Assembly (NCBI GenBank): GCA_008923315.1
Contig: WBSF01000002.1
Span: forward strand, 62,001 to 126,000
DNA length: 64,000 nt
Direction of reading: 5' to 3'
Origin: Betaproteobacteria bacterium SCN1
Lineage (GTDB): Bacteria > Pseudomonadota > Gammaproteobacteria > Burkholderiales > Thiobacillaceae
How positions within the stretch are numbered: the first letter of the stretch is position 1; each line of letters begins with the position of its first letter. This document shows, in pieces, positions 20,305 to 25,904 of this stretch. Both the position numbers and the translations under genes were made by a program. Under the pieces are notes generated by a model. It did not search any database and had not been told where the DNA came from. It saw only the letters and a program-made list of their open reading frames with translations.

Positions 20305-20897
20305 GATGCGCCTCCGGGCGGGGCGAGGGTGAACCAGGCGATGTCGCATTCGGCCTGCAGGCGCGGCTCTGCGCTGGCCTGGAACGGGCCGTCGCTCAGG
20401 CGCGTCAGGCGGCAGCCCCGGACGCGCATCAAACCCGGTGCGCGCGCCTGCAGGGCGGCGAGGAAACGCGGCAGATCGGTTTCCACGAGCAGGGGCAGGG
20501 TGAGCGTCATGAGCGTGCTGCCGAGCGGCAGGCCTTGCGCGAATTCCGGGCGTTCGGCCTGGCGCGGGGCCAGACGATAGTCGAGCCCGTAGAGGCCGGC
20601 GTCGCGGTTGGCGAGTTGCGCCGCCTCGATCCAGGCGAGCCGCGCTTCGGGGCCGACGAAGCCGCGCGCGACCAGGGCGCGGTAGCCGTCCAGATGGGCG
20701 GCGACGAGGCGGGCTTCCTCGTGGCTTTGGGCGAGCCTGCCCTGGGCGGTCGCACGCTCGCCGCGCGCCGTCTCCAGTGCGAGCCGCGCGGCCGTGGCCT
20801 GCTGTCCGCTCCAGACGATGCCGGCGGCGGCGAACGCCAGCGCGAGCGCGATCAGCACCAGCGAAAACTTGAGGGCGGCGAACGGCGGGCGGTTCAT
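20301..20897 (-). CDS. mshJ: PilO/GspM-like (MshJ-type) inner-membrane protein
   Basis: 198 residues. One N-terminal membrane helix (about 10-32), a coiled-coil-prone stretch (about 33-75), and a small periplasmic domain, the architecture of PilO/GspM. It would assemble with the MshI-like and MshK-like neighbours into the inner-membrane platform. Start ATG at 20897 overlaps the mshI-like stop (ATGA), and its stop overlaps the next gene's GTG, so the run is translationally coupled. Confidence 0.7.
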   Translation of the reverse strand: MNRPPFAALKFSLVLIALALAFAAAGIVWSGQQATAARLALETARGERATAQGRLAQSHEEARLVAAHLDGYRALVARGFVGPEARLAWIEAAQLANRDAGLYGLDYRLAPRQAERPEFAQGLPLGSTLMTLTLPLLVETDLPRFLAALQARAPGLMRVRGCRLTRLSDGPFQASAEPRLQAECDIAWFTLAPPGGAS

Positions 20898-22396
20898 GTC
20901 GCGTCTTCCCGCAGTGCGACTTCGAGGCTGAATCGGGCCGCCGGCGCGGCGGCGCCGGATTGCGCGTCGAAGGTCTTGCCGCTGAGCGTGCGGGCCGAGT
21001 CGGTGTCGACCGGGCTGGCGCGCAGGCGCACGTCGCCGACCGCCGGCGCGGCGCGCAGGGCGCGCATGAACGCATCGATGCGCAGCATGGCGGCGCGGTA
21101 GTTGCCGTCGAAGGGCGCGACCGCGGCTTCGATCCGGAGCGTGCGTGCGGTGGTCTGGTCGGAGGGACCGTCCGCCCAGGCGAAGGCGTCGAGCCGGATG
21201 TCGGGCGTCTCCTGCAAGGCCCGGCCGAGCAGAGCGAACAATGTTTCCGGCTGGACCGGACTGCTTTCCAGCGTATGGGCCAGCGCCACGGTTCGGGCCA
21301 GTCGCGCGGGATCGGGCAGGTCTTGCGGGAAAGCGCGGGCGACCGCCCGGTAGCGGGCGTCGAGCTGCTGGCGCTGCACGTCGAGGCTGCTGGCCCGATC
21401 CAGCACCTCCTGCGCGTGCAGCCATATCGCGCCGGTGAGCGTGACGCCGGCGAGCGCGATGGCTCCCGCCGCGACATGCAGGTTGCGCCGCCAGCGGAAT
21501 TCGGTGTGCCGTTGCAGCAGTTCGCGGGGGGCGAGATTGAGCGAGGCGCCGACGCCGGCGATGGCGGCGAGCGGCGCGATCGCCGGCGTGGCGGACAGGA
21601 AATCGTCGGGCATGCGCAGCGCCTGCGCGAGCGCGGGCAGACCGACCAGCCGGGTGCTGAAGGCCGGGTCGGCGTTGAGCCGCGCCTGCGCGCTGTCGAG
21701 CTGACCGCTCGGGTCGATCAGCACGACGTGCAGGCGGGCTTCGCGCGGCAGGATGCGCTGGCCCGTGAGATAGAGCTGGGTCTTGGCGATCTCGTCGGCG
21801 GCGTTGCCCGCCGCCGTCGCCGGCGCGTCGCCGCCGATCAGGCGCGAAAAACGCAGGAGGCCGTTGTGGTAGTACGAGAGCCGCAGGCGGTTGTTGAGCC
21901 GGTAGGCCAGCAGCACGTGCGGCTCCTGGATGCGCAGCGCGGCGAGCAGATGCTGGCAGGCGAGCGCCAGCGGCGCGATGCCGGCGAGCGGCGCGCGCCC
22001 GTGTTCGAGCACGGCGAGCCAGGGCGTCAGCCAGTCCGCGTCGGTGAGCGCCGCGAACAGGTAGCGGTCGTCGCGGCGGCCGGCGGTTTCGCGCCCCTGG
22101 CGCCAGGCGCCGGTGAAGCGCGCGTTGCGGAACACCTGCCTGAGCTTGCGGGCGACCATTTCCTCGCGCGCCCGGCCCTGCACGTGCGGCAGGATTTCGC
22201 TGCGGTAGTCCTCGTCGACCGTGTCGGCGACGACCAGCGCCGGCTGGCGCGCATGACGCTCGACGACCTCGCGGAACGCCAGCAGCCCGTCGCCGGTGGC
22301 GTCGAATTCGCCCAGCCAGCGCAGGTTTCCGGGGCGCCAGTCGAGCGCGCCGATCTGGCGGGGCGTGGCGAGCAGGACGAGGCGGCGGTCGAACAT
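20894..22396 (-). CDS. mshI: MshI-like PilM/PilN-type inner-membrane assembly protein
   Basis: 500 residues. The first half (about 1-290) has the pattern of a cytoplasmic ASKHA-like PilM/GspL domain, followed by a single membrane helix (about 310-330, NLHVAAGAIALAGVTLTGAIWL) and a periplasmic PilN/GspL-like domain. The gene fuses the PilM and PilN functions into one protein, as in MshI. It would dock the MshE ATPase to the platform. ATG at 22396, 12 bases after mshG's stop. Confidence 0.68.
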   Translation of the reverse strand: MFDRRLVLLATPRQIGALDWRPGNLRWLGEFDATGDGLLAFREVVERHARQPALVVADTVDEDYRSEILPHVQGRAREEMVARKLRQVFRNARFTGAWRQGRETAGRRDDRYLFAALTDADWLTPWLAVLEHGRAPLAGIAPLALACQHLLAALRIQEPHVLLAYRLNNRLRLSYYHNGLLRFSRLIGGDAPATAAGNAADEIAKTQLYLTGQRILPREARLHVVLIDPSGQLDSAQARLNADPAFSTRLVGLPALAQALRMPDDFLSATPAIAPLAAIAGVGASLNLAPRELLQRHTEFRWRRNLHVAAGAIALAGVTLTGAIWLHAQEVLDRASSLDVQRQQLDARYRAVARAFPQDLPDPARLARTVALAHTLESSPVQPETLFALLGRALQETPDIRLDAFAWADGPSDQTTARTLRIEAAVAPFDGNYRAAMLRIDAFMRALRAAPAVGDVRLRASPVDTDSARTLSGKTFDAQSGAAAPAARFSLEVALREDAT

Positions 22397-22408: not shown

Positions 22409-23614
22409 TTACAGCGGCAGATTGCCGATCAGGTCGTAGACCGGCAGCAGGACCGAGACCAGGATGCCGCCGAGGATCAGGCCGAGGGTCGCGGTCAGGA
22501 GCGGCTCCAGCACGCGCAGGCCGTTCTCGATGGCGTCGAGCACTTCGCGGTTGTAGAAGTAGGTCACGTTGTCGAGCGCCTCGTCGAGCGCGCCGGTGGT
22601 CTCGCCCACCCGCAGCATGCGGATCACCAGCGGCGGAAACAGCGCCAGCGACTGGAAGCTCTCGGACAGGCCGCGGCCGTCGGCGATCTGCTGCGCGGCG
22701 CGGCGGATGCCGGCGGCGATGACGCGGTTGCCCGCGACGCGCTCGCCCGCGCGCAGGGCGTCGAGCACGGTCACGCCCGAGCGGTACATCATCGCCAGCG
22801 TGTTGGTGAAGCGGGCGAGCACGATCTTCTGCACGATCGGGCCGACGACCGGCAGGCGCAGGCGGGTGCGGTCCCACCAGTTGCGGCCGGCCTCGGTCTG
22901 CCTGGCCCAGAGCGGCAGCGCGATGCCGGCCGCCAGCAGCAGGACGAGGCCGATCAGCCAGTAGGAACGCAGCGCGTTCGACACCGCCATCAGGATCAGG
23001 GTGGGCCAGGGCAGCGCCACGCCCATCGTCTGCACGAGCTGCAGCACCTGCGGCACGAGATAGATCATCAGGAACAGGATCGCGACGCCGACCACCACCA
23101 GCACGATCGCCGGATAGATCATCAGCCGCTTGGCCTTGGCCGCGACTTCCTCCTGCCACTTCAGCGATTCGCCCAGCCGCTCGAACACCTCGTCGAGCAG
23201 GCCGGTCTGTTCTCCGGCCCTGACGCTGTGCACGAACACCGCGCCGAACACGGCCGGATGCGCGGCCAGCGCCTGCGACAGCACCTTGCCGCCTTCCAGG
23301 TCTTCCAGCAGCGCGGTCAACACGTCGCGGAAGCCGCGTTTCTCCATGCTGTCGCGCAGGTCGCGCAGGCCTTCCAGCAGCGGAATGCCGGCGCGCGTGA
23401 TGTAGCGCATGTGGATGCAGAAGGTGACCAGATCGCGCCGCGTCACCCGTTCGCGGCCCTGCGGTGCGTATTGCCGCGACAGTTCGTTGAGTGTAACGAG
23501 ATCGAGCCCCATGCGCTTCAGGCGCAGTTCGAGGTCGACGTCGTTGACGGCCGACAGCACGCCCTTGACCGAGCGTCCGGTCTGGTCGATGGCGCGGTAG
23601 TCGAAGAAGGGCAT
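22409..23614 (-). CDS. mshG: GspF/PilC/MshG-type inner-membrane platform protein
   Basis: 401 residues. Two T2SSF domains (about 65-190 and 270-395) surround three membrane helices. Signature stretches are FDYRAIDQTGRSVKG at the N-terminus, FCIHMRYITRAGIPLLEGL, and the second-domain MMYRSGVTVLDAL. It is the polytopic platform on which pilins assemble. Start ATG at 23614. It is separated from mshE by the 0.5-kb inverted-repeat module, unlike the other tightly packed genes of the operon. Confidence 0.9.
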   Translation of the reverse strand: MPFFDYRAIDQTGRSVKGVLSAVNDVDLELRLKRMGLDLVTLNELSRQYAPQGRERVTRRDLVTFCIHMRYITRAGIPLLEGLRDLRDSMEKRGFRDVLTALLEDLEGGKVLSQALAAHPAVFGAVFVHSVRAGEQTGLLDEVFERLGESLKWQEEVAAKAKRLMIYPAIVLVVVGVAILFLMIYLVPQVLQLVQTMGVALPWPTLILMAVSNALRSYWLIGLVLLLAAGIALPLWARQTEAGRNWWDRTRLRLPVVGPIVQKIVLARFTNTLAMMYRSGVTVLDALRAGERVAGNRVIAAGIRRAAQQIADGRGLSESFQSLALFPPLVIRMLRVGETTGALDEALDNVTYFYNREVLDAIENGLRVLEPLLTATLGLILGGILVSVLLPVYDLIGNLPL

Positions 23615-23635
23615 GGTTAGGCGGGCCTCGCGACG

Positions 23636-24138
23636 GCTTCGCTTTTCGCCTGCGGGCGAGTCACTTTCTTTTGCTTCGCCAAAAGAAAGTAACCAAAGAA
23701 AAGGCGACCCCACATCGCTGCCCTGCAGGTTCCCGATTTGGCGCGCGCGGGCGGGCGCTCCACCAACTCGCCCTGGCAAGGCACACAAAACGTGCCTTGC
23801 TGCGGAGCTCGGACACGGTTCCGCTTTTCCCCCGCCCGCGCGCGCCAAATCGGCAGCGCTGAAGGGGGAGAAAATCCGGAACCGCCCGTATGCAGTGCCA
23901 CCGACTCACCGAGTGTGGGCGTCCGTATCGGAGCCCCTTCTGCGTCGCTGAGCAGCGGAGCCGGACGGGAGAAAAAGGCGCGGGGTGTCTGAGCCTGCCA
24001 GGGCGAGTTCCCGCGCCGCCCCGGCCGGCGAGCAGCGCAGGGCAGCCGAAGGCCGGCGCAGCAGGGGTGGCCTTCTTTTTGGTTACTTTTTCTTGGCCAC
24101 GCAAGAAAAAGTGACTCGCCCGAAGGCGAAACGAAGCG
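23636..24138. repeat. Inverted-repeat module (about 500 bp) between mshG and mshE
   Basis: A non-coding stretch flanked by imperfect inverted repeats: about 70 bp at 23636-23707 and 24068-24138, both sharing GGGCGAGTCACTTT and AAAGTAACCAAA. Each arm holds a perfect 11-bp hairpin: ACTTTCTTTTG/CAAAAGAAAGT (23663-23690) and ACTTTTTCTTG/CAAGAAAAAGT (24085-24112), with compensating base changes. Inside are a 20-bp inverted repeat (23735-23754 with 23832-23851) and a 9-bp hairpin (23776-23800). ORFs across it are probably not genes. No transposase is present. Similar dispersed intergenic repeats occur in other proteobacteria, from memory and unverified. Confidence 0.8.
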
Positions 24139-24206
24139 TCCGCACACCACGGATGGCGCGGAAAGAAGGCATTCAGATCGCGCAACGCGCACAGAAAAAT
24201 GCCGCC

Positions 24207-25904
24207 TCATACCCGCCCCGTCAAATCCACCACCCGCGCCACCTCCGCCAGCGAAGTGACGCCGTCCTTCACGCGCTGGACGCCATCTTCGGCCAGCGGA
24301 CGATAACCGTGCTCGAACGCGGCGCGGCGGATTTCGTGCAGCGGCGCGTGGTTGGCGACGAGTTCGTCGAGCGCGGGGTCGAGGCGCAGCAGTTCGATCA
24401 GGGCCAGCCGGCCCCGGTAGCCCTTGTAGCCGCAGGCGGGGCAGCCGGCCGCGCGGTAGATGGGCGGTGCGGCATCCGGTTCGAGGCCGAGGATGCGCGC
24501 TTCGTCGGCGTCGGGCGTGTAGGCTTCGCGGCAGTGCGGGCACAGTTTGCGCACCAGGCGCTGGGCGATGACGCCGATGATGTTGCCCGACAGGATGCCG
24601 GGCTGGATGCCGATGTCCATCAGGCGCGGGAACACGCCGAGCGCGGAATTGGTGTGCAGGGTGGTGAACACCTGATGGCCGGTCATGGCCGCGCGGAACG
24701 CCATCTCGGCGGTGTCCTTGTCGCGGATTTCGCCGACCAGGATGATGTCCGGGTCCTGACGCATGATCGAGCGGATGCCGTTGGCGAAGTCGAGCTTGAG
24801 CGTCTCGTTGACCGAGCTCTGGCGCATCAGCGTGACCGGGTATTCGACCGGGTCTTCCAGCGTCATGATGTTCACGGTCTCGTTGTTCAGGTGCGAGAGC
24901 ATCGAATAGAGCGTGGTCGTCTTGCCCGAGCCGGTCGGCCCGGTGACGACGAGGATGCCCTCGGGGCGCGCCATCATCAGTTGCAGCTCGCGCAGCGCGT
25001 CGGTGGTGAAGCCCATCTGCTCCAGCGGCATGATGGATTTCTCGCGGTCGAGGATGCGCAGCACCAGGTTTTCGCCGTGGATGCCGGGCTGGCTGGAGAC
25101 GCGGAAGTCGATCGGGCGACCGTTCAGGGTCAGCGACATGCGGCCGTCCTGCGGCGCGCGCGTCTCGGCGATGTTCATCCCGCACAACACCTTGAGTCGC
25201 ACCAGGATGCCCGGCCAGTAGGTCTTGTGCAGGCTCCTGACCTGTTCCAGCACGCCGTCGATGCGGTAGCGGATGCGCAGGAAGGCGTGCTCGGGTTCGA
25301 AGTGGATGTCGGAGGACTCGCGTTTCACCGCGTCGGTCAAAAGCGCGCCGACCAGCCGCACCACCGGCTGGGTGTATTCCTCGGTGTCGGGGTTGAGGCT
25401 GGCGTAGTCGACCTCGCCGGTCTCGATCTCGCGCAGGATGCCGTCGAGCGAAAGATCGAAGCCGTAGAACTTGTCGATGCATTCGAGCAGTTGCGCCTCG
25501 GCCGCGAGCAGGGTGTCGATCTCCATCTTGCCGCCGAGCGCGGCCTTCAACTGATCGAGCGCAACCACGTTGAACATGTCGGTGGTGGCCAGCGTCAGCA
25601 CGTTGTGCGCGACGTCGTGGGCGATCGGCAGCAGATGGTGGCGGCGCGCGAATTCCTCGGGCACGAGCTGCAGGGCATCGGGGTCGGCGACGACCTGCGC
25701 GAGGTCGATGCCCTGGCTGCCGAGCGCGTTGGCGAGCTGGTCGCGCAGCACCGCCTCGGTCATGAAGCCGAGCGCGACGAGCTGGCGGCCGATGGGCAGA
25801 CCCGTGGCCTTCTGCTCCTTCAGCCCGATGCGCAACTGGTCGAGGGTGATGAGTCCCTGGGTGACCAGGGTTTCGCCCATGCGGAGTTTCTTGCGGCGCT
25901 CCAT
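24207..25904 (-). CDS. mshE: MshE/PilB-type pilus assembly ATPase
   Basis: 565 residues. The N-terminal MshEN-like region (about 1-160) is the domain that binds c-di-GMP in MshE. The catalytic half has Walker A GPTGSGKT at 322-329, Asp-box and Walker B (IILVGEIRD, about 387-395), and a tetracysteine zinc site CPHC (455, 458) and CPAC (488, 491). It powers pilus extension. AGGAG eight bases before ATG at 25904. Upstream neighbour is mshN. Conserved c-di-GMP residues could not be verified by eye. Confidence 0.92.
   Translation of the reverse strand: MERRKKLRMGETLVTQGLITLDQLRIGLKEQKATGLPIGRQLVALGFMTEAVLRDQLANALGSQGIDLAQVVADPDALQLVPEEFARRHHLLPIAHDVAHNVLTLATTDMFNVVALDQLKAALGGKMEIDTLLAAEAQLLECIDKFYGFDLSLDGILREIETGEVDYASLNPDTEEYTQPVVRLVGALLTDAVKRESSDIHFEPEHAFLRIRYRIDGVLEQVRSLHKTYWPGILVRLKVLCGMNIAETRAPQDGRMSLTLNGRPIDFRVSSQPGIHGENLVLRILDREKSIMPLEQMGFTTDALRELQLMMARPEGILVVTGPTGSGKTTTLYSMLSHLNNETVNIMTLEDPVEYPVTLMRQSSVNETLKLDFANGIRSIMRQDPDIILVGEIRDKDTAEMAFRAAMTGHQVFTTLHTNSALGVFPRLMDIGIQPGILSGNIIGVIAQRLVRKLCPHCREAYTPDADEARILGLEPDAAPPIYRAAGCPACGYKGYRGRLALIELLRLDPALDELVANHAPLHEIRRAAFEHGYRPLAEDGVQRVKDGVTSLAEVARVVDLTGRV

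Follow-up and report, generated by a model that had tools for sequence, protein, structure and literature searches.

A paired inverted repeat at the mshE/mshG junction of a Thiobacillus genome and its apparently undescribed repeat family with a predicted RNA triple-helix pseudoknot

We found that a 504-bp inverted-repeat module between mshE and mshG in a Thiobacillus genome consists of two copies (A and B) of one ~230-nt unit in opposed orientation, and that this unit belongs to a widespread, apparently undescribed bacterial repeat family. Throughout, "the window" is the whole 64,000-nucleotide stretch of this genome that was analyzed. Computation supports the family itself, the structure of its unit, the strand read as RNA, the presence and absence of the element among relatives, the mobility of a Methylobacter MITE that carries the unit, and the arrangement of units in pairs. 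On balance we consider the module to be probably a non-autonomous mobile repeat of the ERIC/Correia kind, selected at the RNA level for a pseudoknot with a triple helix and acting in cis on the mRNA of its operon.

Results

Anatomy of the element

The coordinates of the element and its parts are collected in Table 1. A sequence-only reading of this DNA had described imperfect inverted arms of 70 bp with a 20-bp inverted repeat nested inside; the outer arms (23644-23711 and 24064-24131) are indeed imperfect but measure 68 nt with 85% complementarity, and the inner repeat, found in unit A, is real but has arms of 23 nt that are 100% complementary. That reading was right that each outer arm holds a perfect 11-bp hairpin, ACTTTCTTTTG/CAAAAGAAAGT in one and ACTTTTTCTTG/CAAGAAAAAGT in the other, with the differences between the two compensated. 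Beside each hairpin we noted that its purine strand recurs in mirror image (AAAGAAAAGG; AAAAAGAAGG), and this copy co-varies with the hairpin. Read on strand 1 (plus for unit A, minus for unit B), the unit opens with a small GC hairpin, the pyrimidine arm ACTTTCTTTTG, a loop containing TCGCC, and the purine arm CAAAAGAAAGTAACC, and continues with a second purine run AAAGAAAAGG mirroring the first, CGACCCC, and a long variable hairpin domain that extends to near AAGGGG.

The element fills the intercistronic gap, with ~20 nt separating its end from the mshG start codon. The neighboring ORFs are otherwise tightly packed, as had been pointed out: only 12 nt lie between the ORF at 20894-22396 and position 22409, and there is contact or overlap at the ORFs of 25915, 27069, and 28844. 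Long open frames cross the module in several frames (e.g., window 23617-25482 on the minus strand), and spurious gene calls are possible there. In its terminal inverted repeats, small size, and lack of a transposase, the window element resembles a MITE. When 91 non-redundant units were folded and compared with dinucleotide shuffles, the mean z-scores were -4.5 and -4.9 on the two strands; given these scores and the further copies in its own genome and many others, the module is not a product of chance. The predicted fold of an operon transcript across the window is a single long hairpin made of both units.

Table 1. Positions in the window of the element, its predicted parts, and the flanking genes
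Feature	Position	Strand	Basis
Whole element, two inverted units	23635..24138		Inverted-repeat analysis of window
Unit A	23635..23870	- (predicted RNA strand)	Pseudoknot at mshG side; borders by eye from conserved motifs
Unit B	23930..24138	+ (predicted RNA strand)	Pseudoknot at mshE side; borders by eye
Inner inverted repeat of unit A, left arm	23733..23755
Inner inverted repeat of unit A, right arm	23831..23853
Small GC hairpin, outer end of unit A	23647..23658		Sequence-variable hairpins by eye at same place in other units
Small GC hairpin, outer end of unit B	24117..24128		By eye
Unit A S2 3' strand (S2b) with loop-closing base	23660..23673	-	Covariation
Unit A S1 3' strand (GGCGA)	23676..23680	-	Covariation
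Unit A S2 5' strand (GTTACTTTCTTTT)	23681..23693	-	Covariation
Unit A loop L1 (TTTTCTTT), predicted third strand of triple helix	23695..23702	-	Triple covariation
Unit A S1 5' strand (TCGCC)	23703..23707	-	Covariation
Unit B S1 5' strand (TGGCC)	24068..24072	+	Covariation
Unit B loop L1 (TTCTTTTT), predicted third strand	24073..24080	+	Alignment row L001:1927-2013
Unit B S2 5' strand (GTTACTTTTTCTT)	24082..24094	+	Covariation
Unit B S1 3' strand (GGCCA)	24095..24099	+	Covariation
Unit B S2 3' strand (AAGAAAAAGTGAC)	24103..24115	+	Covariation
mshG (T2SSF), downstream cistron	22409..23614	-	Pfam; gene start 23614
mshE (T2SSE + MshEN), upstream cistron	24207..25904	-	Pfam; gene end 24207

A predicted pseudoknot with a third strand

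On strand 2 the core of the unit reads 5' UCGCC - UUUUCUUU - G - GUUACUUUCUUUU - GGCGA - AGC - AAAAGAAAGUAAC. We predict from covariation that the interlocking helices S1 (UCGCC/GGCGA, ~5 bp) and S2 (13 bp) form an H-type pseudoknot, and that the pyrimidine loop L1 (UUUUCUUU) runs parallel to the purine strand of S2 as a third strand, giving a putative major-groove triple helix of seven or eight U.A-U/C+.G-C layers. The RNA strand, whose end coincides with the element's outer edge, would carry a variable domain closed by the helix P1, then the pseudoknot, and then the small GC hairpin. Telomerase RNA and the SAM-II riboswitch contain H-type pseudoknots where U.A-U triples join a U-rich L1 to S2; compared with these, the predicted helix here has seven or eight layers and lies within a dispersed bacterial repeat.

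Our core alignment held 170 cores (174 distinct cores less 4 wrong-strand matches), 121 of which were kept by similarity. In these 121, S1 and S2 were paired in 94.9% of cells, and both sides had changed at 14 of the 18 pairs (shuffled mean 9.4, as high in 1 of 500 shuffles), with 194 double-change cells versus 41 on shuffling (0 of 500 as high). Sliding the partner by 1-3 columns dropped the double-change cells to 6-58. Thirty of the 121 rows were without a standard first S1 pair, partly from misalignment of 8-nt variants. P1 likewise showed many double changes in an alignment of 25 of the 28 full units. A protein-coding reading of the module was set aside, as open frames in multiple registers occur in GC-rich DNA and P1 and S1 vary freely by compensation; what we saw conserved is RNA pairing, with compensated changes frequent.

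Supporting the third strand, 896 of 951 L1 cells (94%) formed canonical U.A-U or C.G-C triples, versus 84.6% (maximum 87.3%, 0 of 2000 as high) when L1 was shuffled among rows; restricting the count to the 52 rows whose S2 is not the dominant one (in some of them only because of a gap) gave 89.0% against 75.2% shuffled. Matches in other genomes, found by the covariance model and parsed without alignment, gave 392 of 412 (95%) against 76.5% (0 of 5000), a set that is independent in its organisms but not wholly in its detection, since the model includes L1 as sequence, and the shuffles leave relatedness among rows in place; 38 of the 98 matches had been excluded from this set (28 partial, 4 identical, 4 without S1, and 2 with a short S2). 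An exact 7-nt mirror was seen in 134 of 168 parsed rows (16 of 184 were unparsed), and a direct-repeat relation of L1 in place of the mirror was rejected at 60% canonical versus 95%. Plain hairpins were ruled out by the mirror covariation. Inverted S2 pairs were also answered in L1: where S2b was U and S2a was A, L1 was G (2 rows from one genome; a G placed on a T-A inversion is a known pyrimidine-motif triplet), and where S2b was C and S2a was G, L1 was C (6 of 6 rows, two genomes). Since a mirror relation cannot come from DNA copying, a triple helix is the simplest reading, and the co-variation of S1 and S2 together with the parallel match of L1 to S2 is what would be expected of an H-type pseudoknot with a major-groove triple helix. 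The selection on structure that the sequence-only reading had proposed is supported by the covariation of S1, S2, P1, and the L1 triples. In 9 of the 20 parsed Methylobacter tundripaludum MITE copies (L245-L252, L254) there are 47-119 nt between S2a and S1b, with L1 and S2 kept; as the model wants the two helices stacked at that point, these inserts count against a fully rigid knot.

On strand 2, S1 and S2 held 86 G.U cells versus 12 A.C cells (47 of the 86 stemming from one pair), and P1 leaned the same way (32 versus 6, counted from the table of 25 sequences). Strand 2 was the more stable in 80 of the 91 units, or 67 of 91 once the shuffles were subtracted. This excess of G.U over A.C, with the stability of strand 2, points to selection on RNA, or at minimum on strand 2 as a single strand, and the G.U bias disfavors a purine-motif triplex on the opposite strand.

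Distribution of the family

The sequence-only reading would have been undercut by a lack of other copies in the genome together with a conserved coding signal, but other copies exist: the genome has isolated units at C4:73912 and C6:359879, as well as a pair on either side of a 260-aa ORF at C4:63394-64724. An exact-pattern scan of named genomes returned at least 117 stretches, in Thiobacillus, Gallionella, Sideroxydans, Methylobacter, Comamonadaceae, and others, and a simple pattern matched 21 of 370 genomes of the class, with 0 for a reversed-pattern control. With a covariance model of the core we obtained matches (E 1e-4 or better) in 77 of 397 sampled Pseudomonadota genomes, 16 of the 77 being outside the class and all in one family (f192); in another family of ~2-Mb genomes (f155) the model matched 24 of 41. 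Units were present on named replicons of Caballeronia, Variovorax, Pasteurella multocida (a pair between dapF and a DUF484 gene, followed by xerC), and the fusobacterium Ilyobacter polytropus (7 matches), and one unit was readable in an Aeromonas caviae record. Searching 5,426 E. coli genomes with an 83-nt unit query gave no match; a phage origin was rejected, as the same query had no match among 50,697 phage records.

Rfam 15 gave no match at its gathering cut-off in the window or at 11 other loci, and the three weak matches below the cut-off (E 0.77 or worse) were all to microRNA models. A literature text search with the core sequence, in a collection thin on subscription journals, found no paper, so an earlier description is possible; topic searches, likewise covering few subscription journals, found analogues only. 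A 2008 survey of stem-loop families appears, in the accessible part of its text, to list one initial cluster for P. multocida and three for H. influenzae (PMC2267715), and from that part these clusters could not be matched to the present repeat.

Turnover at the msh and sdh junctions

All 56 Thiobacillus genomes searched, our own included, matched a 2-kb query, a few of them weakly, and a near-identical extent of the element (query 730/736-1238) was found again in other genomes of the genus. We compared 42 mshE/mshG junctions, i.e., 41 fetched junctions with both flanks on one contig plus that of the window, and found the element present, inverted, lacking, or replaced. It had the orientation of the window at 8 junctions (own included) and the inverse one at 7, and it was lacking at 27; 6 junctions were empty (1-24 bp), which agrees with the earlier proposal of an insertion without a transposase, and 4 were otherwise short, with two of the short junctions (L188, 96 bp, and L206, 82 bp) resembling by eye the outcome of deletions in which part of the outer arm survived. 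Other inserts occupied the junction in close relatives. Thirteen junctions had GGGGTCAGG palindrome-type inserts, and 4 had a GxxExxY-type PD-(D/E)XK gene between AACCACAGAG inverted repeats (one checked with Pfam).

The latter (L176, L201, L207, L211), with inverted repeats AACCACAGAGGCACAGAG and the Pfam check made on L211 alone, is another small cassette flanked by inverted repeats at the same hot spot. The thirteen palindromic inserts, a third and unrelated kind, have GGGGTCAGGATTCAGGGG repeats, mostly around a GC hairpin (L177, L178, L180, L182, L184, L185, L187, L193, L195, L196, L203, L208, and L212, with L178 of GGGGACAGC type).

On a tree of the flanks, presence of the element required 13 changes (shuffled mean 12.4) and orientation required 2 (shuffled mean 5.2, as low in 1 of 500), indicating that the junction turns over while orientation is inherited. 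Since orientation at msh follows the tree, old inheritance with exchange fits better than frequent new insertion, and the reading of the Thiobacillus inversions as repeated new insertions is disfavored. Outside msh, among the matches listed, which reach below full-copy scores, all 14 full or contig-cut copies adjoin the start of sdhB; 11 of these also show the end of sdhA, and the remaining 3 are cut by contig ends. The fetched Thiobacillus copies of the pair thus occupy two operon junctions, mshE/mshG and sdhA/sdhB, and both orientations occur at both. In two contigs (L231 in G022, L232 in G049), identified by fuzzy matching, the end of sdhA is linked through the element to mshE, which is either recombination between two element copies or chimeric assembly at the repeat. 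No target duplication was recognized by eye at the Thiobacillus msh or sdh junctions, though empty junctions exist.

Placement relative to genes

At proteobacterial loci of low GC, in which genes are easier to call, co-directional genes flanked 26 of the 27 units scored, or 24 of 25 junctions once repeats were merged. In this census 10 of the 43 loci were unscored, and three of the scored sites were seen twice. The sole exception (L365) was convergent and none of the 27 was divergent; the knot end lay from ~20 nt inside to 120 nt off the end of the neighboring ORF. Five distinct scored sites in Ilyobacter comprised three divergent-looking, one convergent, and one co-directional. A cruder gene calling that included GC-rich loci started from 184 units, of which 62 touched a contig edge, 65 overlapped an ORF, and 57 were clean intergenic cases, and found 31 of the 57 clean units co-directional and 26 not, 8 being divergent, with no orientation bias.

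Mobility, pairs, and cargo

In M. tundripaludum SV96 the unit sits inside a ~320-bp element with ACTGATGTTACGCA ends, of which 21 copies were examined; among the 19 with both ends, 13 had a 5-bp target duplication, against a mean of 1.0 and a maximum of 6 in a control with re-paired flanks. Three 1107-bp spans have the same ACTGATGTTACGCA ends, and the one read (L301) encodes an IS701-family transposase. This element is a MITE both in having terminal inverted repeats common to an autonomous IS in the same genome and in its target-site duplication. The earlier suggestion of a non-autonomous mobile element is supported for the family; around the Thiobacillus pair itself no such duplication was seen, nor were the IS701-common ends.

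Units also occur as neighbors, and 45 of 55 such pairs have the arrangement of the window, with the knots outermost, while 7 are tandem and 3 opposite (one of them close); the 55 are not independent, as over a dozen are the Thiobacillus element. In Caballeronia, nine complete pairs on one replicon, and one cut pair, all have this same arrangement, with no clear target duplications at the pairs. Twelve of the 45 pairs are spaced 700-3000 bp apart, and in 12 of 12 the intervening GC is below that of the locus, by 0.03-0.16; nine of the twelve enclose one or two clear genes. From nine loci we took ten cargo proteins, six of which had Pfam matches (DUF2441, GIY-YIG, RES, AAA_15/AAA_21, Shedu SduA_C, and PD40) and four of which had none. 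Defense- or toxin-like families (Shedu, AAA_21, RES) are held by 3 of the 9 scanned cassettes. Two Methylobacter-type cassettes (L126, L281) have a GIY-YIG nuclease gene beside the left unit (Pfam run on the L126 copy), the two proteins being near-identical and their partner genes different. At five further loci (L049, L059, L122, L134, and L139) symmetry or motifs reach by eye past the unit into other intergenic repeats, as nested quasi-palindromes (GTAGGATGGGTTG..., GGGAGAGGG...CCCTCTCCC).

Discussion

We favor, as the probable explanation, that the module represents a non-autonomous interspersed repeat, of which it is one copy, and that two inverted ~230-nt units make up this repeat. Insertion would be between co-directional genes, and in either orientation the mRNA would then carry an antisense (strand-1) unit after the upstream stop and a strand-2 unit before the next start codon. 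The inverted units may offer an RNase cleavage site, by analogy with Correia and ERIC, and the triple-helix knot may resist exonucleases or control entry to the next cistron. By the same analogy, a cis effect on mRNA processing or decay is possible for whichever operon has been entered. For the copy studied here, that it moved in Thiobacillus, that it is transcribed, and that it affects mshE/mshG in any way are inferences. Eukaryotes and their viruses have triple-helix RNA stability elements, and we raise tentatively, at less than even confidence, that the repeat could be a bacterial counterpart of these, spread between genera by DNA transposition and capping or insulating cistrons and captured cargo.

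An alternative we regard as unlikely places the function in DNA: the units would be transposon-like terminal inverted repeats, recognized as folded single-stranded DNA (hairpin plus pyrimidine triplex) by a transposase or recombinase, with RNA irrelevant. The outermost position of the knots in most pairs and the lower-GC cargo that can be enclosed suit such a role, and a pyrimidine-motif triplex is also possible in DNA; arguing against it, G.U far exceeds A.C on one strand in the knot and in P1 (though DNA tolerates G.T somewhat), and the mobile ends in Methylobacter are repeats outside the unit, common to the IS701 element. It is also quite improbable, in our estimation, that the repeat is selfish junk, its structure kept because copies spread and its effect on host mRNA mere tolerance between cistrons, a reading that draws on the patchy presence and the few divergent placements in proteobacteria; selection at the RNA level on a detailed knot across Beta- and Gammaproteobacteria and Fusobacteriota requires the RNA to have a function of some kind, even if that function is selfish.

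The sequence-only reading had also raised an RNA element controlling mshG versus mshE. An element evolved to set mshE:mshG stoichiometry could be read from the filled gap and the short distance to the mshG start codon, but we consider it very improbable: most of the compared junctions lack it, with other inserts in close relatives, its presence on the tree is as patchy as shuffled labels, and the same pair adjoins sdhB in other species, in the 14 fetched copies, so a dedicated mshE/mshG regulator is not supported.

The usual description of interspersed repeats in bacteria is one of hairpins or palindromic DNA. REPs are GTAG/CGTC-tagged palindromes with RAYT transposases. The present element resembles REP/BIME in forming inverted pairs of palindromic units between genes, and differs in that its unit is ~230 nt with a predicted RNA pseudoknot while REPs are 20-40 bp (PMC3733652, accessible part). 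The intergenic dyad sequences of H. influenzae are among the nearest known systems. The IS701-family MITE of Methylobacter carries the same unit between ends common to an IS701-family element, ends that were not seen on the Thiobacillus pair. According to the accessible part of PMC10969869, Correia (NEMIS, Neisseria) and ERIC (enterobacteria) are, like the repeat here, small, palindromic, non-autonomous, and mostly intergenic; both are present in host transcripts, Correia elements are capable of inversion and their transcripts are cut by RNase III, and an RNase E site can be unmasked by ERIC. Unlike either, the element here is ~500 bp built from two units with a predicted triple-helix pseudoknot, and it can hold cargo genes; that it differs from ERIC in sequence is judged from the E. 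coli search described above.

In a repeat matched in about a fifth of the sampled Pseudomonadota genomes, the sequences give evidence of a long RNA triple helix, one apparently kept by three-way covariation that includes base-pair inversions answered in the third strand. If confirmed, it would provide many natural variants with which to study the rules of RNA triplexes, a role for intra-operon repeats that can be put to the test, and a marker by which to spot single-gene cassettes. Should the tentative counterpart to RNA stability elements prove true, mobile DNA would be handing out a ready-made mRNA-stability device wherever the repeat lands.
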